A DNA stretch of 34,922 bases, taken from assembly GCA_026996165.1 (NCBI GenBank), contig JALWMP010000157.1, forward strand, positions 1 to 34,922, given 5' to 3'. The position numbers were made by a program, and so were the translations under genes. The notes beneath the pieces are model-generated. The model saw only the letters and a list, made by a program, of their open reading frames with translations, was not told the DNA's origin and made no database searches. How positions within the stretch are numbered: position 1 is the first letter of the stretch; each line of letters starts with the position of its first letter. This document shows, piece after piece, positions 1 through 21,072 of the stretch. This DNA comes from Campylobacteraceae bacterium. GTDB taxonomy: Bacteria; Campylobacterota; Campylobacteria; Campylobacterales; Sulfurovaceae.

Positions 1-906
1 CTTCATAACTTTGATGAGATAGAGCGAAAAGGGCTAAAGATAGGTGACAGTGTTATCTTAATTCGCTCTGGAGATGTAATTCCAAAGATTACTAAAGTGT
101 TGACCGATAGACGTGATGGAAGCGAAAAAGATATAGTTCGTCCAACCTCTTGTCCTGCTTGTGGTTCAGAGGTATTAGATGAGGGAACACTTATTAAGTG
201 CCAAAATATGGACTGTCCTGCAAGAGTTGTTAACTCTATTATTCACTTTGCTAAAAAGGGAAGTATGAATATAGATGGGCTTGGTTCTAAGATTGTTGAG
301 CTATTGGTCAAAGAGGGTAAAATAAGAGATATTTTAGACTTATATAATTTAAAATATGAAGATTTAGAGGGGCTAGAGGGGTTTAAAGAGAAGAGAATTA
401 ACAAACTCTTAGATGCTATAGCCAAAACAAAAGGGACACCTTTAGCTAAACTTATTTCTGCTATGGGTATTGAGCATATTGGAGCTGTTGCAGGAAAGGC
501 TATTGCTTTAGAGTTTGGTTTGGGTGTAGTAGATGTGACAGAGGAGCAACTAGAAGCCATAGATGGCATTGGTGTAGAGATGGCTCGTTCGTTTGTTGAG
601 TTTATGCGAGTTAACCGTGAGTTTGTTTTGAAGCTGTTCGATAAAATCGAACCTACGGTTGAGGAGAGAGTTGAGGCAAAGGAGAATCCTTTTAAAGGTA
701 AAACAGTAGTTCTTACAGGGACTATGTCTGTTAGTCGAGGCGTAGTAAAAGAGATGTTAGAAAAACTAGGGGCAAAAGTGAGTGGGTCTGTTTCTAAAAA
801 GACAAATTTTTTGATTTATGGTGAAGATGCAGGGTCGAAGTATGATAAAGCTGTAAAGTTAGGAGTTACAACCTTATCAGAAGATGAGATGAGAGAGTTG
901 ATTTAA
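1..906 (+). CDS. ligA: NAD-dependent DNA ligase, 3' part (5' truncated by window edge)
   Basis: Frame 1 is open from base 1; OB-fold tail, Cys4 zinc finger CPACGSEV...CQNMDCPARV, HhH repeats, C-terminal BRCT (GKTVVLTGTMSVSRGVVKEMLEKLGAKVSGSVSKKTNFLIYGEDAGSKYDKA). Confidence 0.97.
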   Translation, partial: LHNFDEIERKGLKIGDSVILIRSGDVIPKITKVLTDRRDGSEKDIVRPTSCPACGSEVLDEGTLIKCQNMDCPARVVNSIIHFAKKGSMNIDGLGSKIVELLVKEGKIRDILDLYNLKYEDLEGLEGFKEKRINKLLDAIAKTKGTPLAKLISAMGIEHIGAVAGKAIALEFGLGVVDVTEEQLEAIDGIGVEMARSFVEFMRVNREFVLKLFDKIEPTVEERVEAKENPFKGKTVVLTGTMSVSRGVVKEMLEKLGAKVSGSVSKKTNFLIYGEDAGSKYDKAVKLGVTTLSEDEMRELI

Positions 907-1052
907 AATAGTGATAGATATATCAACTCTCTTCCGTTATTGCTAATTTTGATTTTTGGGTTATGAGATTTTAGAAAATTTGCAAACTCTTTGGCAGTTA
1001 AGTATCCAAAACTTTGTGCAATCTCTATAATCTTTCTATCTTTATAGTTCAT
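903..1052 (-). CDS. small ORF, 49 aa, hypothetical (MNYKDRKIIEIAQSFGYLTAKEFANFLKSHNPKIKISNNGRELIYLSLF)
   Basis: Not in the supplied ORF track. Preceded by GGAGAGAGAA immediately before ATG; convergent with ligA and overlapping its stop by 4 nt; helix-turn-helix-like composition. Confidence 0.5.
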   Translation of the reverse strand: MNYKDRKIIEIAQSFGYLTAKEFANFLKSHNPKIKISNNGRELIYLSLF

Positions 1053-1219
1053 TTCTCTCTCCATGTTGAATTAGTATTGTTTTTATGGAGATAATTTTAA
1101 TAAATAATTGAAGAAAAAACCTTAACTTTTAAAAAAAAGTGATATTTTAAAAGAAAAAGATTTTTTTTAAAATAGTAACTGTTTTAATCTATTTTAAGCT
1201 AATAATTTTTTAATAATAA

Positions 1220-2047
1220 TTAATTTTTTATTTCATTTTTACCTTTAACAATAAAGCTCAACTCCTCATCGCTAATATCTCTTAAATAATCTATACCACA
1301 CTTTAAATCTTTAAGATATTCAAAAGCCTTGTAGACATTTTCTTGAGTAATAATACTTCCATGTTGAGGCATAATATTTGTTACCTCCCTATCTTTAAAA
1401 TTGATTAAAAAATTTCTATTAGCTTTATTTGCAGCAATGTAACCTTTGTGAAAAAAGTCCATATCCTCTTTATGTTTATCGAAATCATCTTCAAGTATAA
1501 GCTTCCACTCTAGGCTAATAGCTGCCCAAATATCTCCAGAGAAGAGGGTTTTTGTATGACGATTATAAATAGTTACAGCTCCAGGTGCATGCATAAATGG
1601 AGATGGAATAAACTCTAATACTGCACCTGAATCAAGTGTTAAAGTAGGGTTTGTTTCTGTATTAAAATATCTATACTCTTTTCCATCTGGAATATAGTGT
1701 TGAATCAATACATTTGTATTTGGTGAGGTGATAATCTCTATGTCTGGATTTAACTCAAGCCAATCTACCATAGCAGAGGTAACATCAGGGTCTTGATGAT
1801 TAACAAATATTTTAGTAATATATCTTATTGGCATTACCTGTTTAATCCGTTTTAGTGTATTTTGAAACTCACTCCTGCTTCCACAATCTATAATTATCCC
1901 CTCTCTTTTATCTTTAATAAGATAGATATTGCTCTTAAACGCTTCAGAAGAGCTTGTTCCTACCCAATATATTTTATGATGACCCTTATCTATTAAAAGT
2001 ACAGCATCTTTATTAAAGTCATATTTTGTATTTATATCTTTGTTCAT
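1220..2047 (-). CDS. metallo-beta-lactamase-fold diiron protein (ODP / flavodiiron N-domain-like), copy 1
   Basis: Motifs NHQDPDV, PSPFMHAPG, FSGDIW, MPQHGSII match positions of the diiron ligands of the flavodiiron/ODP family (HxDxD...H...D...H); no flavodoxin domain. Confidence 0.85.
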   Translation of the reverse strand: MNKDINTKYDFNKDAVLLIDKGHHKIYWVGTSSSEAFKSNIYLIKDKREGIIIDCGSRSEFQNTLKRIKQVMPIRYITKIFVNHQDPDVTSAMVDWLELNPDIEIITSPNTNVLIQHYIPDGKEYRYFNTETNPTLTLDSGAVLEFIPSPFMHAPGAVTIYNRHTKTLFSGDIWAAISLEWKLILEDDFDKHKEDMDFFHKGYIAANKANRNFLINFKDREVTNIMPQHGSIITQENVYKAFEYLKDLKCGIDYLRDISDEELSFIVKGKNEIKN

Positions 2048-2077
2048 GAAGATTTATCCTTTATATCTCTAAACTAT

Positions 2078-2881
2078 TTACTCAATAAAGCTCAACTCTT
2101 CATCACTAATATCTCTAAAGTAGTCTATACCACACTTTAAATTTTTAAGATAAGCAAAAGCTTTTTTAACATTTTCTTGAGTAATAATGCTTCCATGTTG
2201 AGGCATAATATTTGTAACTTCTCTCTCTTTAAAATTGATTAGAAAATTTCTAGCTGCTTTATTTGAAGCGATATATCCTTTATGAAAAAAGTCCATATGC
2301 TCTATATGTTCACTAAAATCATCTTCAAGTATGAGTTTCCACTCCAAACTAATAGCTGCCCAAATATCTCCAGAGAAGAGGGTTTTTGTATGTCGATTAT
2401 AGATAGATACTGAACCAGGAGAGTGCATAAATGGAGATGGAATAAACTCTAGTACAGCACCTGAATCGAGTGTTAATGTAGGGTTTCTCTCTGTATTAAC
2501 ATATCTATACTCTTTTCCATCACTCATATAGTGTTTAATCAAGGTATGTGTATTTGGTGAAGCTATAATCTCTATATTTGGATTTAACTCAAGCCAATCT
2601 ACCATGGCAGATGTAACATCAGGGTCTTGATGGTTTGCAAATACTTTAGTAACGTAAGAGAGGGGCATTACCTGTTTTATTCGTTTAACTGTCTCTTGAA
2701 ATTCGCCTTGACTTCCACAATCTATAATCATTCCCTCTCTTCTATCTTTTATAAGATAGATATTGCTTCTAAGTGCTTCGGTAGAGGTTGTTCCAACCCA
2801 ATATATTTTATGATGACCTTTGTCTATTAAAAGTACTGCATCTTTTGAAAGGTCATATTTTGTATTTATATCTTTATTCAT
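2078..2881 (-). CDS. metallo-beta-lactamase-fold diiron protein (ODP / flavodiiron N-domain-like), copy 2
   Basis: About 85% identical by eye to the adjacent 1220-2047 product; same ligand motifs. Start overlaps the upstream RR stop (ATGA). Confidence 0.85.
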   Translation of the reverse strand: MNKDINTKYDLSKDAVLLIDKGHHKIYWVGTTSTEALRSNIYLIKDRREGMIIDCGSQGEFQETVKRIKQVMPLSYVTKVFANHQDPDVTSAMVDWLELNPNIEIIASPNTHTLIKHYMSDGKEYRYVNTERNPTLTLDSGAVLEFIPSPFMHSPGSVSIYNRHTKTLFSGDIWAAISLEWKLILEDDFSEHIEHMDFFHKGYIASNKAARNFLINFKEREVTNIMPQHGSIITQENVKKAFAYLKNLKCGIDYFRDISDEELSFIE

Positions 2882-3945
2882 GAGAATCTATCCTTTATAT
2901 CTCTAAATCGTTCAAAATTATCTGCAAATAGAGTCACTAGTGCAGGGTCAAATTTAATACCTCTTTCTCGTTTAATAATATCAAGAGCTTCCATAGAGGA
3001 GATAGTTTCAGGAGAGTAGATTCGAGAAGTAGTTAGCTCATCAAAATAGTTAACAATAGCAGCAATTCGTCCATAAAGAGGAATGCTTTCTCCTTTTATA
3101 CCATGAGGATAGCCACTTCCATCCCAATTCTCTTGATGTGTTAAGATAACCTCTTTTGCCATCTTTATTAAGGTAGTCTCCTCTAACTCTTCAAGAATAT
3201 CTAAGCCTAAGAGAGGATAGGCTTTAAATGCTTTTGAGTTTGGATTAGCTCTATCCTCTTTTGGAACACGAAGTAGACCAATATCGTAAATAGACATAGA
3301 GTAGTATAGGTTGTCAATCTCTTTAGAGTTTAGTCCATTGAGTTTTGCCATTACTTTAGCATACTCTCCAATTCTCTTTGAAGCGTAAGTATCACTACTA
3401 CCATTTTCATGAGAGTTTTCATGGGCAATATTGCCAAGCTTCTCTAAAAGCTTTTTTTGTGAACCTATGGCAATCTCTATAGCCTCTTTTAGATGAGATA
3501 GATTAGAGGAAGAGGAGGAGTCCTCCTCTTCTATTTCACTTAATAGTTCAGAGAACTTTTTAATACGTAGGTGGTTATAGACACGTAGTTTTAACTCTTC
3601 GGGATTAAAAGGTTTAGAGATAAAATCATCTGCACCTAGCTGATAAGTTTTTCTTTTCTCTTCCTCTTTTGAGGTAACAACAACTACAGGAATATCTCGA
3701 TACTCTGCATTAGATTTTAGATATTTTAATGTCTCAAACCCATTCATCTTTGGCATCATTAAATCAAGTAAAATCAAGTCTATAGCTTCAGTCTCTAAGA
3801 GTTTAAGAGCCTCCTCTCCATTATCAGCTTGTATTACATTTATTCTATCATACTCATCAAAAACTGCACTTGCTAACTCTTGATTAAACTCATCATCATC
3901 AACATTTAAGATAAGAGTATCTTCAAAATTTTTAAAATCTTTCAT
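2878..3945 (-). CDS. response regulator with degenerate HD-GYP output domain
   Basis: REC domain (LILNVDDDEFNQELA, LILLDLMMPKMNG, VVTSKEEE, ISKPFNP) followed by HD-GYP-like domain with DGSGYP kept but HD replaced by YD (SIYDIGLLRVP). Confidence 0.9.
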   Translation of the reverse strand: MKDFKNFEDTLILNVDDDEFNQELASAVFDEYDRINVIQADNGEEALKLLETEAIDLILLDLMMPKMNGFETLKYLKSNAEYRDIPVVVVTSKEEEKRKTYQLGADDFISKPFNPEELKLRVYNHLRIKKFSELLSEIEEEDSSSSSNLSHLKEAIEIAIGSQKKLLEKLGNIAHENSHENGSSDTYASKRIGEYAKVMAKLNGLNSKEIDNLYYSMSIYDIGLLRVPKEDRANPNSKAFKAYPLLGLDILEELEETTLIKMAKEVILTHQENWDGSGYPHGIKGESIPLYGRIAAIVNYFDELTTSRIYSPETISSMEALDIIKRERGIKFDPALVTLFADNFERFRDIKDRFS

Positions 3946-6012
3946 CTATGCCTCCTCTGTGACAGAGTCTAAAAGTAGAGATAGATGCTCCATTAATCTG
4001 TTTTTACCATCAACTATTGATATAAAGTCACCTTTTTCTGCCTTTTTTTGTAAATCTCCTGCTAAATTAGATAGCTCTTTAATTCCAATATTTGACAGGA
4101 CACCTTTAAGTGCATGGAAATCCTCTACTAACTCTTTAACATCTTTATTTTCAACACTCTTTTCAACTCTATCAAAATATGTTTTAATTGATGATAGTGC
4201 TTTCTGATACAGCTTATTTGCTACAGTATCGTTAAAGTTGTTTTTTAGATGATTTAGTGCTATATCTTTCATGCTATTGGCATCTGTTATGGATAACTCT
4301 TGCTTACTCTCTTCTTTCTCTTTAGATGTTTTCTCTTGTTCTGTAGTTATAAACTCATTGTTTAGTAGTTTAATAAGTTTATTTTCAATATCTTTTTTCT
4401 CTAAAGGCTTCTCAATAAAATCATTCATTCCTGACTCTTCTGCTGCTAGTTTGTCCTCTTTGTAGACATTTGCAGACATACAGATAATAGGAAGTTTTTT
4501 GTCAAACTCTCTAATTTTCTTTGTTGCTTCAAGTCCATTCATAACAGGCATACGCATATCCATTAAGACAGCATCATAGTTATTCTTTTTGACCTTTTCT
4601 ACAGCAATTAGACCATTTTCTGCTGTATCACAGTCTATAGAGAAGAAGTTGTTTAGCATCTCTTTTTCATACTCTCTATTTAGGTCAACATCTTCAACAA
4701 TTAAGATATTTAATCCAGAGTAGTCTACCTCTTTGTTAGACTCGAAGAACTCTTTTGAGTAGACCTCTTCAATCTGTTTAATAAAACGTTGGTGAGGAAT
4801 TGGCTTGTTAATCATCTTATCAAAATCAGAGAAGTTTTTATCGTTTTCTCTATCAACCACAGCAACTAACTTAATATCGGGATTAATTGCTCTTAGTGTT
4901 CCTGCAATATCCATGGTATGATTTTTGAAAATATCAGTATCAAAAATAGCCATATCATAAAAACGTCCTGAAGCTATCATCTGAACTAATGAAGCTGTAA
5001 TATCTCCATTTATAACATCATGATTTTGAAAATTAACTCCAAGATTTAAAAACTCTTTTGATACCTTCTCAACAAAAGTGTCTCTAGGGGAGAACATCAT
5101 AATGTTAGCACCCTTTAATGTCTTACCAATCTCTTTTTTGTTTGCTTTCTCAACAATAAAGGTTACTTCAAATCTACTACCCACACCTTTTTTAGAATCA
5201 ACTGTAATCTCTCCGTCCATAAGATGAGAAATCTCTTGTGAAATGTAGAGTCCCAGTCCTGTACCTTGGGTTTTGTCGGTTGATTGGAATGGATTAAAGA
5301 GTGTATCTGCAACTTCATCAGGAATACCGTCTCCTGTATCATCTACATTTGCAACTATCTTTACTTTGTTATTCTCTAGCTCTTCTATCTTTCTAACATA
5401 GAAACGGATTGAACCTTTTTTGGTAAACTTCGCAGCATTTGAAAGAAGATTAATAAAAATCTGTTTAATTCTCTTGTCATCAGCATTAATGGTATACTCA
5501 AGCATAGGAATATCTACAATAAAATCAACATCTTTTGCTACACGTGAGCGAATAAGATTTGCACAGTCATTTAAAATATCATCTAGTTCAACCTCTCTTG
5601 GAGAGATTTCAATTTTGTTGTCTCCAATTTTAGCAACATCAAGTAGGTCACTCACTAATGATAGTAGATGGTTTGAACTCTGAATCATACTATCCAAATA
5701 TCTCTTTTGTTTATTGTTTAGAGCTGTATCGTTAAGAAGCTCACCGTACCCTAAAATGGCTGTTAGTGGAGTTCTTAGTTCATGACTCACAGAGGCAATA
5801 AAACGTTTTTCATTGCTTAATGATGCCTCTAGTTCTGCATTTACTTCAGTTAAAAGGTGAGAGATAGTTAACTTATTCTCATTGGTAATTTTGTATTTTT
5901 TTTGTAATTGATGATACTTATTTTCAAATGAACGAATACGTTGAAGAGTAATCTCTTTATCTTTAAAATCTGGTGCTAACTCTATAGCTTTAGTTATATT
6001 TTCTACTAACAT
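3946..6012 (-). CDS. soluble hybrid sensor histidine kinase (HisKA-HATPase-pseudoREC-REC-HPt)
   Basis: H box SVSHELRTPLTAILGYGELL, N box NLLSNAAKFT, G boxes DTGDGIP/GTGLGLYIS, REC LNILIVEDVDLNRE...AVLMDMRMPVMNG...IEKPL, HPt FHALKGVLSNIG; no TM segment or recognisable N-terminal sensor domain. Confidence 0.95.
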   Translation of the reverse strand: MLVENITKAIELAPDFKDKEITLQRIRSFENKYHQLQKKYKITNENKLTISHLLTEVNAELEASLSNEKRFIASVSHELRTPLTAILGYGELLNDTALNNKQKRYLDSMIQSSNHLLSLVSDLLDVAKIGDNKIEISPREVELDDILNDCANLIRSRVAKDVDFIVDIPMLEYTINADDKRIKQIFINLLSNAAKFTKKGSIRFYVRKIEELENNKVKIVANVDDTGDGIPDEVADTLFNPFQSTDKTQGTGLGLYISQEISHLMDGEITVDSKKGVGSRFEVTFIVEKANKKEIGKTLKGANIMMFSPRDTFVEKVSKEFLNLGVNFQNHDVINGDITASLVQMIASGRFYDMAIFDTDIFKNHTMDIAGTLRAINPDIKLVAVVDRENDKNFSDFDKMINKPIPHQRFIKQIEEVYSKEFFESNKEVDYSGLNILIVEDVDLNREYEKEMLNNFFSIDCDTAENGLIAVEKVKKNNYDAVLMDMRMPVMNGLEATKKIREFDKKLPIICMSANVYKEDKLAAEESGMNDFIEKPLEKKDIENKLIKLLNNEFITTEQEKTSKEKEESKQELSITDANSMKDIALNHLKNNFNDTVANKLYQKALSSIKTYFDRVEKSVENKDVKELVEDFHALKGVLSNIGIKELSNLAGDLQKKAEKGDFISIVDGKNRLMEHLSLLLDSVTEEA

Positions 6013-6013
6013 C

Positions 6014-7150
6014 TTATCTTCTCTCTCTTAATAGTGCAGTTACAAATGTCTCATTATGAAAAGCATTTCCTCCATTAGGAAATGCACCAATCTCTCCGTA
6101 AGCATAGAAGCCAATCAATGGGGTTTTAGTTACCTTGTAAATCGCTTCAATCTCTTCAATAGCATACTCTCCTAAAACCTGTTTTCGTGAACAACAAGGG
6201 AAGAGTAGTCCAATTTCTGGTTTAAAACCTTTATGTTTGCTCAAAACTTCATTAATACTCTTCTCAACATAAGGAATTATGGCTTTACCTCTTGCTGTAG
6301 AGAGTCTAACTCTTGACTTCTCTTCAACATGCCCTGCAAAAATCAATGCTCCAGTATCTTCTTGAATATCAAGAATTGCTCTGTAGACAATTTGACCATT
6401 TTTTAAACGAACCTCTAGGGGGTACTCTATCCCTGTTTGAGGCATATCGTCAGTGGTTACATTTAGATATTTTTTATAGAAATCAATAGCAGGTTTTTCA
6501 TCTATCTCATAAACAATGTTTTTGTCAGCTTTTGTTACAACTCTCTCTTGACCAAGACCTGTCCAACCAAATGCTCTAGTTCCTATAATATCTATCTTCT
6601 TTAAATCTAGTACAAGAACAATAATACCGTGAGAAGAGAAGTTCTCTTTTGAGAAGACAAAGGTATCTTTCAAAATCAAATCGTCTCCTGCTGCACCACC
6701 AAAAATATACTCTACTCCTGTAGATACAATACCTTGGCTATATCCATCATTGTCAAAGTCAAGTCCAGAGGTTACAGTAATAATAGCAGGATTAGCATAT
6801 TGCTCTTTTGCCCATGCTCCAACACGTTTACCTATCTCATAGTATCTATTGTCTTCTATTTGAAGAAGCCTTAAAGAGATTGCAGTAGTGTCAATGTCTA
6901 AAAGCATACAGACAATGGTCTCTTCTCTCTCCTTTGCTCCATGTTGTTCATCTGCAAAAATCTCTCCTACTGTAGTTGAGCCAAAAACCATAAATGGGTA
7001 GTTGTTAAGCTCTACCACTAATTTTCGGATATTATATCTAGGTGAAGTATAGATAAATGCTAAAGTTGGTTGAAACTCTTCTGTAATACTTCTGTTTATC
7101 TTATTTGTTAAGTCGCTTATTGAGTAAGCGTTTACGATAATACTTTTCAT
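6014..7150 (-). CDS. FIST N/C domain protein
   Basis: FIST_N pattern (AFIYTSPRYNIRKLVVELNNYPFMVFGSTTVGEIFADE) and FIST_C end (GLLFPCCSRKQVLGEYAIEEIEAIYKVTKTPLIGFYAYGEIGAFPNGGNAFHNETFVTALL). Confidence 0.9.
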   Translation of the reverse strand: MKSIIVNAYSISDLTNKINRSITEEFQPTLAFIYTSPRYNIRKLVVELNNYPFMVFGSTTVGEIFADEQHGAKEREETIVCMLLDIDTTAISLRLLQIEDNRYYEIGKRVGAWAKEQYANPAIITVTSGLDFDNDGYSQGIVSTGVEYIFGGAAGDDLILKDTFVFSKENFSSHGIIVLVLDLKKIDIIGTRAFGWTGLGQERVVTKADKNIVYEIDEKPAIDFYKKYLNVTTDDMPQTGIEYPLEVRLKNGQIVYRAILDIQEDTGALIFAGHVEEKSRVRLSTARGKAIIPYVEKSINEVLSKHKGFKPEIGLLFPCCSRKQVLGEYAIEEIEAIYKVTKTPLIGFYAYGEIGAFPNGGNAFHNETFVTALLRERR

Positions 7151-7168
7151 TATGTTATTACTCTCTTT

Positions 7169-8287
7169 CTATATATTTTGTTTAACTATTTTTTCTCTTA
7201 GTTCAATAAAGTACTCAAAGTGATTCAAAAAAAGCTTTGTAATCTTTGGATGAAACCGTTGACCACTATTTGTCTCTAAAAGTTCAAAAGTCTCATCTGC
7301 TGTATGGAGTTTGTTATTTAAATAAGACTTTTGAGAAAGTAGAGCATTAAAAGTCTCCGTAAGAGATACTATATAGGCTATATTATGAATCTCATTCTCT
7401 TTTTTTTGTTTTGGAAACCCTGAACCATCAAAATGCTCCTTAGATTGCAATATTATTATTTTAGCTACTTTAATAAAGTTTGTCTCTATGGCAGAGTTCA
7501 ATAGTTGATACCCTGCAAATATAGATGAAGTATGAGTCTCTCTATCTAAGTCAGATAGACTATAAAGCATAGGTATCTTCTCATCTATAGATAGAGTACC
7601 AATTTCACGAATTAAGGTAGCATAATAGATTGTATTTGCCTGTTCTTTATTGTATCCTATAAGTAGACTTAGTGCTTTAGAGAGCAGTGCTACTATTTGA
7701 ATATCATTAAAGTTTTTATTTTTAGTACTCAACATTTTTGCCATAGAGTAGAAGAGCTTTTTTTGACTCTTTTCAATAGACTCTAAATTATAGCTATTTT
7801 GAGTATCTACCTCTTTTGTCTCTTTTAAGACTTCAGCTTTTGATTCTATAAGTGTCTTTTGAATATTGTCTTTTGATAATTCATTATATTTTTTCCTATA
7901 TTGTGATTTTTCTATATGTGCATATATTCTTGATTCGAGTTCAGAGAGTTTAAAAGGTTTAGAGATAAAATCGTCTGCTCCTAAAGAGTAGAGTTTGTTC
8001 ATCTCCTCTTCATCAGTAGTTACAATAGCTACAGGTATAAGGTCATATTTTACTTCATGTTTAATAGCTTTTAATGTCTCATATCCGTCCATTATTGGCA
8101 TATGTAAATCGAGCAGTACCATATCTATATTATGTTTTTCTAAAACCTCTAAAGCATCTTTACCATTCTCTGCCTCAGTAAAATGTATATTTTCTCTTTT
8201 TCCCAACAAATTTATAACAAGTTGCCGATTAAAAGGGTCATCATCAACAATCAATAAATTGATATTACCTAGAAGATTCCACTTCAT
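7169..8287 (-). CDS. response regulator with strongly degenerate HD-GYP output domain
   Basis: REC domain (LLIVDDDPFNRQLV, MVLLDLHMPIMDG, ISKPFKLSE); output domain keeps FDGSGFP but HD is replaced by RE (LIREIGTLSID). Confidence 0.88.
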   Translation of the reverse strand: MKWNLLGNINLLIVDDDPFNRQLVINLLGKRENIHFTEAENGKDALEVLEKHNIDMVLLDLHMPIMDGYETLKAIKHEVKYDLIPVAIVTTDEEEMNKLYSLGADDFISKPFKLSELESRIYAHIEKSQYRKKYNELSKDNIQKTLIESKAEVLKETKEVDTQNSYNLESIEKSQKKLFYSMAKMLSTKNKNFNDIQIVALLSKALSLLIGYNKEQANTIYYATLIREIGTLSIDEKIPMLYSLSDLDRETHTSSIFAGYQLLNSAIETNFIKVAKIIILQSKEHFDGSGFPKQKKENEIHNIAYIVSLTETFNALLSQKSYLNNKLHTADETFELLETNSGQRFHPKITKLFLNHFEYFIELREKIVKQNI

Positions 8288-8415
8288 ATATTTCCTTGTT
8301 TAATAGTTGTAAGGGAAATTATACATTAATAAAATTAAGCTTAAGCAAAAATATTAAATTTTTTTATAAATATTATTTTTAAACATATCTTATTAAATAT
8401 AAACCTAAAATCGAG

Positions 8416-8421
8416 TATAAT
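8416..8421 (+). promoter_or_regulatory. candidate -10 element TATAAT upstream of anmK
   Basis: TATAAT 21 nt before the anmK ATG in the divergent intergenic region. Confidence 0.45.
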
Positions 8422-8441
8422 GGGCTTTAAAAAGATTTTAA

Positions 8442-9527
8442 ATGGAAAAATATATTGGTATTATGTCTGGTACAAGTTTAGATGGTGTCGATGTGGCTCT
8501 TTGTGAACTAAACAATATAGAGTGCCATCTCTTAGCTTCTCACTTTATACAATTTGAAGATTCTCTAAAAAATCAAATTTTAAACTTAATAGCCAATAGA
8601 GTAACTCTTAAAGAGATAGGTGAAGTTGACCATCAATTAGCTCTCTTTTTTGCAAAAGCAGTAAATGAACTCTTAGCTAAGAGTTCATTTGACCCTTTAG
8701 AGGTGGAGGCTATTGGACTACATGGGCAGACTTTATGGCATGAACCTTTAGGTCAACACCCATTTTCAATGCAACTAGGTAATGCTTCTGTAGTAGCTGT
8801 TGAGACAAAAATAGATGTTGTCTCAGACTTTCGCTCTAAAGATGTAGCTTTAGGAGGGCAAGGAGCTCCTTTAGCTCCTGCTTTTCATGCTTTTTTATTT
8901 GCTCATTTAGATAGAGTAGCTGTTGTAAATATTGGAGGTATGGCAAATATCTCTATTTTTAAGCCAGAGCTTTTAGGTTACGATACAGGTTGTGGTAATG
9001 TTTTAATGGATATGTGGGTAAAAGAGCATCTAAATATCGCTTATGATAAAGATGGAGCATGGGCAAAATCTGGTGAAGTTCATGAAAAACTTTTAAATAA
9101 TATGTTAAATGACCCCTATTTTTTATTAAAATATCCTAAAAGTACAGGAAGAGAATATTTTAATAAGAATTTTTTAAGAAAATATTTGCAACCATTAGGT
9201 AAAATATGTGCCAAAGATGTTCAAGCAACCCTCTTAGCATTGACAGTAGAGAGCATCGCAAACGAAATTAGACAATTTGATGTTAAGGAGCTTTTAGTTT
9301 GTGGTGGTGGTGCAAGAAACATTTTTTTAATGGAAAAATTACAAGAGGCTTTACAAGATGTTGAAGTTAGTTCAACACAGAAGTATGGTGTAGATGCTGA
9401 CAATATGGAAGCGATGATATTTGCTTGGTTAGCCTACAAGAGAGTGCATCATGAAAAAGTTGACCTCAAGAGTGTCACAGGTGCAAAAGATAATACTATT
9501 TTAGGGGCAATATATGCAAAAGATTAA
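8442..9527 (+). CDS. anmK: anhydro-N-acetylmuramic acid kinase
   Basis: YIGIMSGTSLDGVDVALCE, GLHGQTLWHEP, NIGGMANIS, GGGARN motifs. Confidence 0.96.
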   Translation: MEKYIGIMSGTSLDGVDVALCELNNIECHLLASHFIQFEDSLKNQILNLIANRVTLKEIGEVDHQLALFFAKAVNELLAKSSFDPLEVEAIGLHGQTLWHEPLGQHPFSMQLGNASVVAVETKIDVVSDFRSKDVALGGQGAPLAPAFHAFLFAHLDRVAVVNIGGMANISIFKPELLGYDTGCGNVLMDMWVKEHLNIAYDKDGAWAKSGEVHEKLLNNMLNDPYFLLKYPKSTGREYFNKNFLRKYLQPLGKICAKDVQATLLALTVESIANEIRQFDVKELLVCGGGARNIFLMEKLQEALQDVEVSSTQKYGVDADNMEAMIFAWLAYKRVHHEKVDLKSVTGAKDNTILGAIYAKD

Positions 9528-10449
9528 ATCATGGTTAAATGATTTAGGTTATAGAGATTACAAAATAGAAGTGCTTGGTGGAGATGCAAGTTTTAGAAGA
9601 TATTATAGAGTTATAGATAAAGATAAAAGCTATATTCTTATGGACTCTACAGCAAACAAAGAGGTGCTTTACCCTTTTATTGATATTTCCGTTCGTCTAT
9701 TGAAAGTACAAGTTGAAGTACCACGTATTATTGCTCAAAATTTAGAGGAAGGGTATCTACTTTTGACAGATTTAGGTTCAAGACACTTAGCAGATATTTT
9801 AAGTGATATGAGTGTTGAATTACTATATACTAAAGCGATTGAAGAGATTTTAAAGATTCAAAAGGCAGATACTACAAACTTAGAACCTTATGATAGAGAG
9901 TTTTTAATGTTTGAGATGAGTCTAATGCAAGAGTGGTATTTAGAGCAACACCTTAAAAGAGATTTGAGTCAAGATGAGCAGAAGATGTTAGATGGTACAT
10001 TGGAGTTAATCTGCAATGAAGTCTTATCTCAGCCACAAGATGTTTTTGTTCATCGTGATTTTCACTCACGAAATATTATGATAGAGACAGGACATAAATT
10101 AGTGATTATTGATTATCAAGATGCACGAAATGGTGCTTTGACTTATGATTTGGTCTCTCTTTTAAAAGATGTCTATGTCTACTTTGACCCAAAACAGATG
10201 GAGATGTTAGCATTAGAGTTTAAGAGATTAAAGGGCGTTGATGTTTCAGATGAGCAGTTTATTCGATGGTTTGATTTTACAGGACTTCAAAGACATATTA
10301 AGATTTTAGGGATTTTTGCTAGACTAGATATTCGTGACAAAAAGAGTAGCTACATAGATAATATTCCCCAAACTCTACAATATATAGATGAGGTGTGTCA
10401 AAAGTATAGTGAGTTAAAACCATTAGGAGATTTTTTAAAAAAATTGTAG
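9514..10449 (+). CDS. amgK: aminoglycoside phosphotransferase-family sugar kinase, probable N-acetylmuramate/N-acetylglucosamine kinase
   Basis: APH-type motifs VHRDFHSRNIMI and VIIDYQDARNGALTYDLVSLLKD; overlaps anmK and precedes murU-like gene. Confidence 0.85.
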   Translation: MQKIKSWLNDLGYRDYKIEVLGGDASFRRYYRVIDKDKSYILMDSTANKEVLYPFIDISVRLLKVQVEVPRIIAQNLEEGYLLLTDLGSRHLADILSDMSVELLYTKAIEEILKIQKADTTNLEPYDREFLMFEMSLMQEWYLEQHLKRDLSQDEQKMLDGTLELICNEVLSQPQDVFVHRDFHSRNIMIETGHKLVIIDYQDARNGALTYDLVSLLKDVYVYFDPKQMEMLALEFKRLKGVDVSDEQFIRWFDFTGLQRHIKILGIFARLDIRDKKSSYIDNIPQTLQYIDEVCQKYSELKPLGDFLKKL

Positions 10450-10715
10450 GGGCAACCTCCGTGTTCGCCCCTATTCAATATGGCGAGAAATTCAAAAAAA
10501 TTTTATAGAAATTAAGACAATATATTTTAAATATTGTAGGGGCAACCTCCGTGTTCGCCCCTCTTCAATATGGCAAAAAATTCAAAAAAATTTTATAGAA
10601 ATTAAGGACAATATATTTTAAATATTGTAGGGGCAACCTCCGTGTTTGCCCCTGTTCAATATGGCAAGAAATTCAAAAAAATTTTATAGAAATTAAGACA
10701 GAATATTTATTGTCA
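10444..10715 (+). repeat. three tandem ~90 bp repeat units with core GTAGGGGCAACCTCCGTGTTCGCCCC
   Basis: Units begin at 10444, 10534 and 10625 (TTGTAGGGGCAACCTCCGTGTTYGCCCCTNTTCAATATGGCRARAAATTCAAAAAAATTTTATAGAAATTAAG...), nearly identical. Confidence 0.97.
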
Positions 10716-10742
10716 ATTATATATATTTCGGTACGACAATAT

Positions 10743-10768
10743 GGGGCAGACACGGAGGTCGCCCCTAC
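10743..10768 (-). repeat. inverted copy of the repeat core (reverse complement GTAGGGGCGACCTCCGTGTCTGCCCC)
   Basis: GGGGCAGACACGGAGGTCGCCCCTAC on + strand; matches the cores in both arrays with 1-2 differences from the nearest forms. Confidence 0.93.
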
Positions 10769-10795
10769 AGAATATTTAAAAAAAGGAAGCCAATT

Positions 10796-11449
10796 ATGAA
10801 AGCAATGATACTTGCAGCAGGATTAGGTACTAGAATGAGACCACTTACTAACCATACCCCAAAACCACTCTTAAAGATAGGAGGAAAACCTCTTATTGTT
10901 TGGCATATTGAACAACTGCGTAATGCAGGATTTGGACAAATAGTTATAAATATTGCCTATTTAGGTCAACAGATAATAGACTACTTAGGTGATGGTTCAG
11001 AGTTTGGTGTTCAGATTGAATTTTCTGATGAACAAAATGAAGGAGCATTGGAGACAGCAGGAGGGATTGTAAAGGCACTTCCTCTTCTTTCAGATACCTT
11101 TTTAGTAGTCAATGGAGATATTTGGACAGACTATCCATTTGATAGTAGCTATAAGTTAGATGATGGACTTTTAGCTAAACTAATTTTGGTAAAGAACCCT
11201 AAACATAATTTAGATGGTGACTTCTATCTGACAGGTACACATGAGAAATATACTTTTTCTGGTATTGGTTACTACTCTAAAGATATGTTTAAAGAGTTAG
11301 AGTATGGTAAACAGTCTTTAGCTCCATTACTCTTTAATGCTATTGATAAAAATATAGTTATAACGGAACTATATAATGGAAAGTGGTATGATATTGGTAC
11401 ACCTGAACGTTTAAGGCATTTAGATAATTTTTTAAAAGTAAATGCGTAG
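10796..11449 (+). CDS. murU: sugar-phosphate nucleotidyltransferase, probable N-acetylmuramate alpha-1-phosphate uridylyltransferase
   Basis: MKAMILAAGLGTRMRPLTNHTPKPLLKIGGKPLI signature; VVNGDIWTDY; WYDIGTPERL; linkage with amgK/anmK. Confidence 0.88.
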   Translation: MKAMILAAGLGTRMRPLTNHTPKPLLKIGGKPLIVWHIEQLRNAGFGQIVINIAYLGQQIIDYLGDGSEFGVQIEFSDEQNEGALETAGGIVKALPLLSDTFLVVNGDIWTDYPFDSSYKLDDGLLAKLILVKNPKHNLDGDFYLTGTHEKYTFSGIGYYSKDMFKELEYGKQSLAPLLFNAIDKNIVITELYNGKWYDIGTPERLRHLDNFLKVNA

Positions 11450-19191: not shown

Positions 19192-21072
19192 GTGCAGAAT
19201 AAACTTACTTTTTTTAATAGTAATAGAGCTTATTATTATCTAATATTTACTTATATTGCACTCTCTTTTTTACTTATTTTCTCCTATAAGAGTATTGGTG
19301 GTTATGAAGAGAAAGTTGAAAATTTTCTTTTAAATAGGGCTATTGGTATTGTTGATGATACATCAACTAATATTCTTGACCAAATTATTTTTAAAAACCC
19401 AAATTTTATTAGGGCAAATTTAGAAGATAAGGTATTAAGGGCTGAAAATGAAAAAAGACTCTCTGTTTTATCAAATCAAGATATAAAATCTCTTTATGTT
19501 CTCTATTTAAATAAAGGTAGATACTTTTTTCTATTTGATATAGACAAAGAGGAACATACCGATGTTAGTGAACCTTTTATTCCTGAAAATGAGAAATTTT
19601 TTACTCAAGTTGTTAAAGAGAAGAAAAAGAGAGTTTTTGTTCAAAGAGATATAGATGGACTCTCTTTTACACTTCTTAAACCTATTGTTCAAAAGAATAA
19701 AACAGTTGCTCTTTTAGTAATTGACTATAGTGAAAATAGACTCTCTTCACTTTTACGTGTAAGTGTTGATTTTTTAAGTTATTCTGCTCTGATTTTGTTA
19801 TTTCTTCTTTTTGTTTTTTTTATTTATGTACTTTATACTCGTTATAACAAATATAAAATATATCGTAATCCTAAAACTAATACATATAACAGAGTCTATA
19901 TGACAGACAACTATGATAAAATTGATTTTAAAAACTATTATGTTGCCTTAGCTGATATTGACTTTTTTAAACGTATAAACAATCTTTATGGACAAGAGAA
20001 TGGAGATAAGGTAATTATATCTGTTATTAAAATAATGGCATCATTTTTAGAGAAGAGTGATATTTTTATTCAGTATAGTGGAGAGGAGTTTTTAATGCTT
20101 TTTTCCAAAGAGAATAGAACAGAAGAGTATGTACGGGAGTTATTGGAGAAAATACGTACTGCTGTTGAATGTACAAAATTTACTATAGATAAAGAGAAGT
20201 TCTCTTTGACTATTTCTATAGGTGTGTTGTTTCATACAGAAGTTGAAAAATCTCTACAAGAGGTAATTCACAAAGCAGATACAGCTCTATATGAATGTAA
20301 ACACAATGGTAGAAATTGTATCTCTTTTTTTGATATTAGTCAAACTCAAAGACTATATAGAGAGAAGTTAAAGGAGATGATAGAGACTGATAAATTGGTA
20401 TGTTACTATCAGCCTATTAGAGATTTAGAGACTAAGGAGCTTCATCATTACGAGGCACTTTTACGTATTGAAGATGGAGATAATATTATTTTTCCTGATA
20501 AAATTTTACCTGATTTAGAAGATTCATATCTTTATACCTATTTAACTAAGAGAGTAATTGAGTATAATATTAACAAATTAAGAGAAGATGAAAAGATACA
20601 AATATCGGTTAATTTGTCAGCTGATGACTTGATTAATGATTCTATTTTAGCAATGTTTGCACAAAACTCAGACTTATCTGATAGATTATATATTGAAATT
20701 TTAGAAAATAAAAGCATAGATTATAATAAAGTAGAACTCTCTTTACAGAAGTTAAAACTTTTTGGGTATAAAATTTGTATTGATGATTTTGGTTCAGGGT
20801 ACTCAAACTTAAATCATCTACTTAATCTTAGTATTGATTATTTAAAAATTGATGGAAGTATTATAAAAGAGATTCATCATGATAAAAAAGCTTATAGTCT
20901 TGTTAAAACTTTTGCTCTTTTTTGTCAACAAAACAATATTGAAGTAATTGCAGAGTTTATTGATAGTCAAGATATTGTAGATATTTTAAAAAGTTTTGGG
21001 GTTAAGTATGGACAGGGTTGGTACTTTTCTAAAGCAGTTCCTTATGATGAGTTAGGTAAGGAACATAAATAA
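19192..21072 (+). CDS. membrane GGDEF-EAL domain protein (GTG start)
   Basis: Two hydrophobic segments bracketing ~150 aa periplasmic region; GGDEF domain with YSGEEF variant; EAL domain with YEALLRI, IDDFGSGYSNL, LKIDGSII, VIAEFIDSQD. Confidence 0.93.
   Translation: MQNKLTFFNSNRAYYYLIFTYIALSFLLIFSYKSIGGYEEKVENFLLNRAIGIVDDTSTNILDQIIFKNPNFIRANLEDKVLRAENEKRLSVLSNQDIKSLYVLYLNKGRYFFLFDIDKEEHTDVSEPFIPENEKFFTQVVKEKKKRVFVQRDIDGLSFTLLKPIVQKNKTVALLVIDYSENRLSSLLRVSVDFLSYSALILLFLLFVFFIYVLYTRYNKYKIYRNPKTNTYNRVYMTDNYDKIDFKNYYVALADIDFFKRINNLYGQENGDKVIISVIKIMASFLEKSDIFIQYSGEEFLMLFSKENRTEEYVRELLEKIRTAVECTKFTIDKEKFSLTISIGVLFHTEVEKSLQEVIHKADTALYECKHNGRNCISFFDISQTQRLYREKLKEMIETDKLVCYYQPIRDLETKELHHYEALLRIEDGDNIIFPDKILPDLEDSYLYTYLTKRVIEYNINKLREDEKIQISVNLSADDLINDSILAMFAQNSDLSDRLYIEILENKSIDYNKVELSLQKLKLFGYKICIDDFGSGYSNLNHLLNLSIDYLKIDGSIIKEIHHDKKAYSLVKTFALFCQQNNIEVIAEFIDSQDIVDILKSFGVKYGQGWYFSKAVPYDELGKEHK

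Follow-up and report, generated by a model that had tools for sequence, protein, structure and literature searches.

The window analysed here comprises 34,922 nucleotides (positions 1 to 34,922 of contig JALWMP010000157.1, assembly GCA_026996165.1) from a Campylobacteraceae bacterium, and it carries an operon of six co-directional open reading frames (ORFs) on the minus strand (1220-8287). The first gene in transcription order, RR-HD1 (7169..8287), encodes a response regulator of 372 amino acids (aa) with a receiver (REC) and a degenerate HD-GYP domain, and is followed by a 378-aa protein with FIST and FIST_C domains (6014..7150), a candidate sensor of nitric oxide (NO), heme, or another small ligand. 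Further downstream are a soluble hybrid histidine kinase (HK) of 688 aa (3946..6012) and RR-HD2 (2878..3945), a second response regulator of 355 aa whose HD-GYP domain is partly degenerate. The last two genes, ODPa (2078..2881) and ODPb (1220..2047), stand in tandem and are predicted to encode diiron proteins of the ODP family with a metallo-beta-lactamase fold, sharing 85% identity. Successive genes are separated by 18, 1, 0, -4, and 30 nt, the ODPa start overlapping the RR-HD2 stop by 4 nt; the initial annotation had described six packed minus-strand genes with most gaps under about 20 nt or overlapping, and these ORFs agree with it. Pfam backs the domain calls of all six genes (REC and HD_5 in both regulators, FIST and FIST_C, HisKA/HATPase/REC/Hpt, and ODP in both tandem proteins).

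Within the kinase, Pfam identifies HisKA, HATPase_c, Response_reg, and Hpt domains and no sensor domain, as the initial annotation had proposed. That annotation also postulated a phosphorelay, and the residues for it are complete: H77, the REC residue D485, and the HPt residue H633 are invariant across the aligned kinase orthologs, and the REC phospho-acceptor Asp is retained in both regulators. ArcB and TorS profiles reach over kinase residues ~300 to 425, and these spans alone suggest a degenerate receiver at residues ~296 to 425; a comparison of residues 296 to 425 with the kinase's own REC by hhalign was not significant (probability 0.5%, E 0.12).

RR-HD1 matches the Pfam REC and HD_5 models with 94.9 and 56.9 bits, and RR-HD2 with 97.2 and 93.8 bits. 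In RR-HD1, RE replaces HD, SKE replaces HHE, and GFP replaces GYP; in RR-HD2, YD replaces HD and HQE replaces HHE, with GYP retained. The HD pair is broken in every complete ortholog of both regulators, as expected from the earlier description of their outputs as degenerate, and five RR-HD2 orthologs retain HHE and GYP. Neither protein has the intact HD and HHE/GYP motifs of an HD-GYP phosphodiesterase, and both are probably noncatalytic, i.e., unable to hydrolyze cyclic di-GMP (c-di-GMP). No other HD_5 protein was found in the assembly, which is 87% complete and encodes five GGDEF proteins. A GGDEF-EAL protein on the plus strand of the window (19192-21072) could serve the degenerate HD-GYP regulators as a c-di-GMP target.

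The first four genes form a conserved core. An ortholog of the kinase is present in 20 of the 34 genomes of this Sulfurovum-like genus, and in most of these, where contigs permit, RR-HD1, FIST, HK, and RR-HD2 occur in the same order. The same core is found in a genome from another family of the order (G011; operon L045:1375-9120), with an extra RR-HD that brings the HD regulators to three and a hemerythrin (45.5 bits) between RR-HD2 and ODP, i.e., two unrelated diiron folds in one operon. A phylum-wide search with the kinase recovered no ortholog beyond the genus among the sampled genomes, and in the order-level sample the only close FIST outside the genus is that of G011. Synonymous changes far outnumber nonsynonymous ones in the operon genes, indicating purifying selection. 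Because the four-gene core is kept across the genus and one other family and is under such selection, a chance arrangement is ruled out. The initial annotation treated this exact combination as not known to have been described as a system, which overstates the novelty of the core. The unusual part is ODP; the core is already known in kind, since an adjacent degenerate HD-GYP response regulator, FIST, and sensorless kinase, as seen here with RR-HD1 in the NosR position and FIST in the NosP position, is the published nosRPK layout (PMC12570481).

Both ODPs match the Pfam ODP model PF19583 far above its cut-off of 27.2 bits (ODPa, 193 bits; ODPb, 186 bits), and ODPa matches PDB entries 6qrq and 6qnm by sequence. 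Residues H84, D86, D88, H153, D172, Q228, and H229 are invariant in 13 ODPs, and the diiron set H-x-D-x-D / H / D / Q-H is complete in ODPa and ODPb; Q has been described as an ODP metal ligand (PMC7785958). The two copies differ by a nonsynonymous divergence (dN) of about 0.085 and a synonymous divergence (dS) of about 0.59. Apart from this genome, only the near-identical G417 shows the tandem pair; other linked operons carry a single ODP, and the nearest named relatives of the ODP gene belong to Sulfurovum and Campylobacteraceae metagenome-assembled genomes. A third ODP on contig C184 (L037:1-2047) was rejected, being a strain-variant copy of window positions 1-1621 (the ODPb 3' end and ligA) with 93.7% DNA identity. 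The assembly mixes strains, and copy numbers in this genome therefore need care.

Across the genus, ODP follows the core closely where the two are linked: in 8 of the 13 operons with that side visible, the distance from the RR-HD2 stop to the ODP start is -4 to +4 nt. The kinase is present in all 11 clear ODP carriers, compared with 9 of the 23 genomes without ODP. In the kinase tree the ODP-linked state is spread over several branches and the unlinked genomes fall in one subclade, a pattern compatible with an old ODP association followed by later losses. The synteny across relatives that the reading of the initial annotation requires is supported.

A survey of 85,462 species genomes yielded 80 ODP loci, 66 of them readable and outside the clade; it used two peptide patterns, one containing LFSGDIW, and is hence biased to the window's subfamily, with Bacteroidales overrepresented. 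In 56 of the 66 outside loci, ODP is adjacent or fused to HK, GGDEF, EAL, or HD genes, versus 21 of 529 (4%) other genes of the same loci. The largest context class is ODP beside a histidine kinase (35/66), and some ODPs have GGDEF/EAL or HD enzymes as immediate neighbors and no kinase. GDIW ODPs stand next to an HK in Bacteroidales, for example, and next to a GGDEF-EAL gene in Methylovulum. Within the order we also observe ODP-GGDEF and ODP-HK fusions, as well as a FIST-HATPase fusion. The genetic coupling of both FIST and ODP to kinases that had been proposed is therefore found, including fusions of each to HATPase kinases, and the idea of ODP as an additional candidate sensor gains support and extends, at the level of gene context, to a whole subfamily.

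This subfamily is distinct from the chemotaxis ODPs. In the ODP tree, the solved chemotaxis proteins, from Treponema denticola and Thermotoga maritima, and ten ODPs of the order form one group (GDIG), and the window ODPs (GDIW) lie across a branch with 100/100 support; the six-gene operon likewise contains no chemoreceptor gene and shows no chemotaxis-type coupling. The GDIG-type ODPs of the order (L007, L009, L010, L012, and L017) adjoin proteins of ~470 aa whose N terminus is a receiver and whose C terminus, in some cases, weakly matches PilZ.

On balance, we read the operon as a NosRPK-like cytoplasmic phosphorelay to which a diiron sensor of O2, iron, or redox state has been added in trans. 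A sensorless kinase with trans-acting sensors has precedents in NosP/NosK and ODP/CheA, and domain content, residue conservation, synteny, and coupling statistics are direct observations at this locus and its relatives. The ligands, protein contacts, sign of control, phosphotransfer order, and output we infer as follows. As stand-alone sensors, FIST and ODP would each bind to the kinase and alter its balance of autophosphorylation or phosphatase activity, FIST responding to NO and/or heme and ODP to O2, iron, or redox state via a peroxo-diiron site. The phosphate carriers would be, in turn, kinase H77, REC D485, HPt H633, and the receivers of the two HD-GYP regulators, which may act allosterically on the cell's other c-di-GMP enzymes, among them the five GGDEF proteins. 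The output could be a choice between surface life and motility set by NO/O2 status. If ODP does control the kinase, a single soluble histidine kinase would integrate FIST-borne signals and diiron O2/iron signals, making it a simple model for the weighing of NO and O2 by bacteria that live where oxic and anoxic conditions meet.

The identity of the FIST input is the first point at which this reading can be varied. The protein matches Pfam FIST with 93.1 bits and FIST_C with 96.1 bits, an architecture shared with NosP, and candidate ligands are NO, heme, or other small molecules. Against the NosP equivalog model (NCBIfam NF041558) it scores 75.9 bits, far under the cut-off of 450 bits. Other FISTs of the order reach 49 to 90 bits; since generic members of the family do equally well, we discard this score as an argument for NO sensing. 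The tie to NosP suggested in the initial annotation is thereby reduced to a likeness at the level of the FIST family. The AlphaFold model (pLDDT, i.e., predicted local distance difference test score, 88) has FBXO22 as its best PDB fold match. A conserved C-terminal His is a putative heme ligand and is missing in G429. FIST also occurs in other settings: a paralogous REC-FIST-HK operon without HD-GYP or ODP is present in this genome (contig C186; L038:6250-9351) and recurs in six more members of the genus (L151-L156), and a 701-aa protein of this genome (contig C142; L006:67-2169) joins FIST, FIST_C, and HATPase into a one-protein FIST kinase.

Instead of NO, FIST might sense heme or a different small ligand, in which case the system would read heme/iron together with O2. 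Besides the generic NosP score, precedents for this come from the NosP of Burkholderia thailandensis, reported to detect heme as cited in PMC13259868, from the Vibrio cholerae FIST protein CdpA, which may detect heme (PMC8846402), and from the Treponema ODP, which the title of a cited paper calls a sensor of iron and oxygen. The gene order and partner types, however, match NO-responsive nosRPK operons, and we hold this variant to be unlikely, if a serious contender.

Two further explanations concern the role of ODP and strike us as about equally improbable. The operon could be a NosRPK-type relay driven by FIST alone, with ODP as an effector, e.g., an NO/O2 scavenger protecting the relay or the cell. 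ODP is indeed related to the catalytic domain of flavodiiron NO/O2 reductases, and the core persists where ODP is absent or unlinked, but ODP lacks the flavodoxin domain of flavodiiron proteins, and the adjacency of its subfamily to signaling genes and its fusions to kinases and GGDEF domains are as expected of a sensor. The other possibility is that ODP senses O2/redox and acts on RR-HD2 or its c-di-GMP target instead of the kinase, to which the 4-nt overlap of the two genes and the kinase-free loci with ODP beside GGDEF/EAL or HD enzymes would be suited; this is countered by histidine kinases being the commonest ODP neighbor class outside the clade and by ODP-HK fusions in the same order. 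That ODP is a hitch-hiker, present by chance and without a functional link to the operon, is hardly credible: some members of the genus have ODP elsewhere or yielded none, but the spacing recurs near zero, the kinase accompanies every clear ODP carrier, another family has the same gene order, and ODP is coupled to signaling genes across phyla.

Several observations nevertheless weigh against a phosphorelay with joint FIST and ODP input. The Fisher test of ODP-kinase co-occurrence, which favors the reading (p 0.0006, or 0.005 with a 30-residue edge fragment of G411 included), is weakened in that it ignores shared ancestry. The core can do without ODP, which lies elsewhere in G291, G351, and G422 and was not detected in the 99%-complete G369. 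FIST is no nearer to NosP than other FISTs are, and it stands beside ODP in 0 of the 66 outside loci.

The more interesting result is the wider one, that a distinct ODP subfamily, the GDIW type, is coupled to kinases and c-di-GMP enzymes. This coupling extends over at least four phyla (Campylobacterota, Pseudomonadota, Bacteroidota, and Thermodesulfobacteriota) and suggests a common use of the ODP sensor beyond chemotaxis, where it is known, as an input to two-component and c-di-GMP signaling. No prior report of such coupling was found in the literature searched, the main ODP paper not being among it. We put forward tentatively, and with slightly less than even confidence, that GDIW ODPs are a general module feeding O2/iron/redox signals in trans to the histidine kinases and c-di-GMP enzymes of several phyla, and that in Sulfurovum-like bacteria they share one sensorless kinase with FIST, forming a two-input phosphorelay (NO or heme with O2 or iron).

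Upstream of the operon, a divergent intergenic region (8288..8441) separates RR-HD1 from anmK and is a candidate promoter region on the minus strand, with the operon promoter probably at a TATAAT ahead of RR-HD1, judging by the motif. In promoter and terminator scans, promoter-like sites were no commoner than expected by chance, terminator-like matches on the operon strand fall within genes, and a search of Rfam gave no match. A palindrome in the same region, GCTTAAGC/TTAAGCTTAA, was rejected as a conserved regulatory box, being partly retained in G417 and unseen in other relatives. The divergent cluster on the plus strand (8442-11449) comprises anmK, an APH-family kinase, and what we take, by reading alone, to be a nucleotidyltransferase, and resembles cell wall recycling genes (anmK/amgK/murU-like).

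Among known systems, the closest is the Burkholderia nosRPK operon. In Burkholderia pseudomallei, NosP binds and inhibits a sensorless kinase, which phosphorylates a degenerate HD-GYP regulator (PMC12570481), and the order of the first three genes as well as FIST, the sensorless cytoplasmic kinase, and the degenerate HD-GYP response regulator are shared with the operon described here. Unlike in nosRPK, the kinase is of the hybrid type, carrying REC and HPt, the operon also includes another degenerate HD-GYP regulator and the ODPs, and FIST falls far short of the NosP equivalog cut-off. The NosP-NahK(-NarR) systems of Legionella, Pseudomonas, and Azospirillum similarly combine a FIST sensor and a kinase with c-di-GMP output, as we propose here. 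Azospirillum has a hybrid NahK/ErcS-type kinase beside nosP, with no ODP near the two nosP genes examined, and the published output in Legionella is, in contrast, a GGDEF-EAL protein. The HnoX-HnoK-HnoB-HnoD network of Shewanella resembles our proposal in its trans-acting gas sensor, phosphorelay kinase, and multiple response regulators, including an inactive allosteric one; it differs in using H-NOX instead of FIST and in that HnoB is active as a phosphodiesterase, whereas the HD-GYPs found here all lack an intact HD pair.

For the ODP branch, the precedent is T. denticola, where the partner of ODP is a receptor that has no sensing modules and ODP influences the ordering of CheA (PMC7666581). 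The T. denticola and T. maritima proteins share family and metal-ligand set with the window ODPs and, if these are sensors as proposed, the principle of a stand-alone sensor whose partner has none of its own. The Treponema protein, however, acts on a chemoreceptor and CheA, whereas the window ODPs belong to a separate clade coupled to histidine kinases and c-di-GMP enzymes. Finally, hemerythrin-coupled c-di-GMP enzymes (VcBhr-DGC and Bhr-HD-GYP) also feed diiron O2/redox sensing into c-di-GMP control, as the operon may do. They achieve it by cis fusion and with an unrelated fold, whereas ODP is here a separate protein encoded beside a phosphorelay, and G011 has both.

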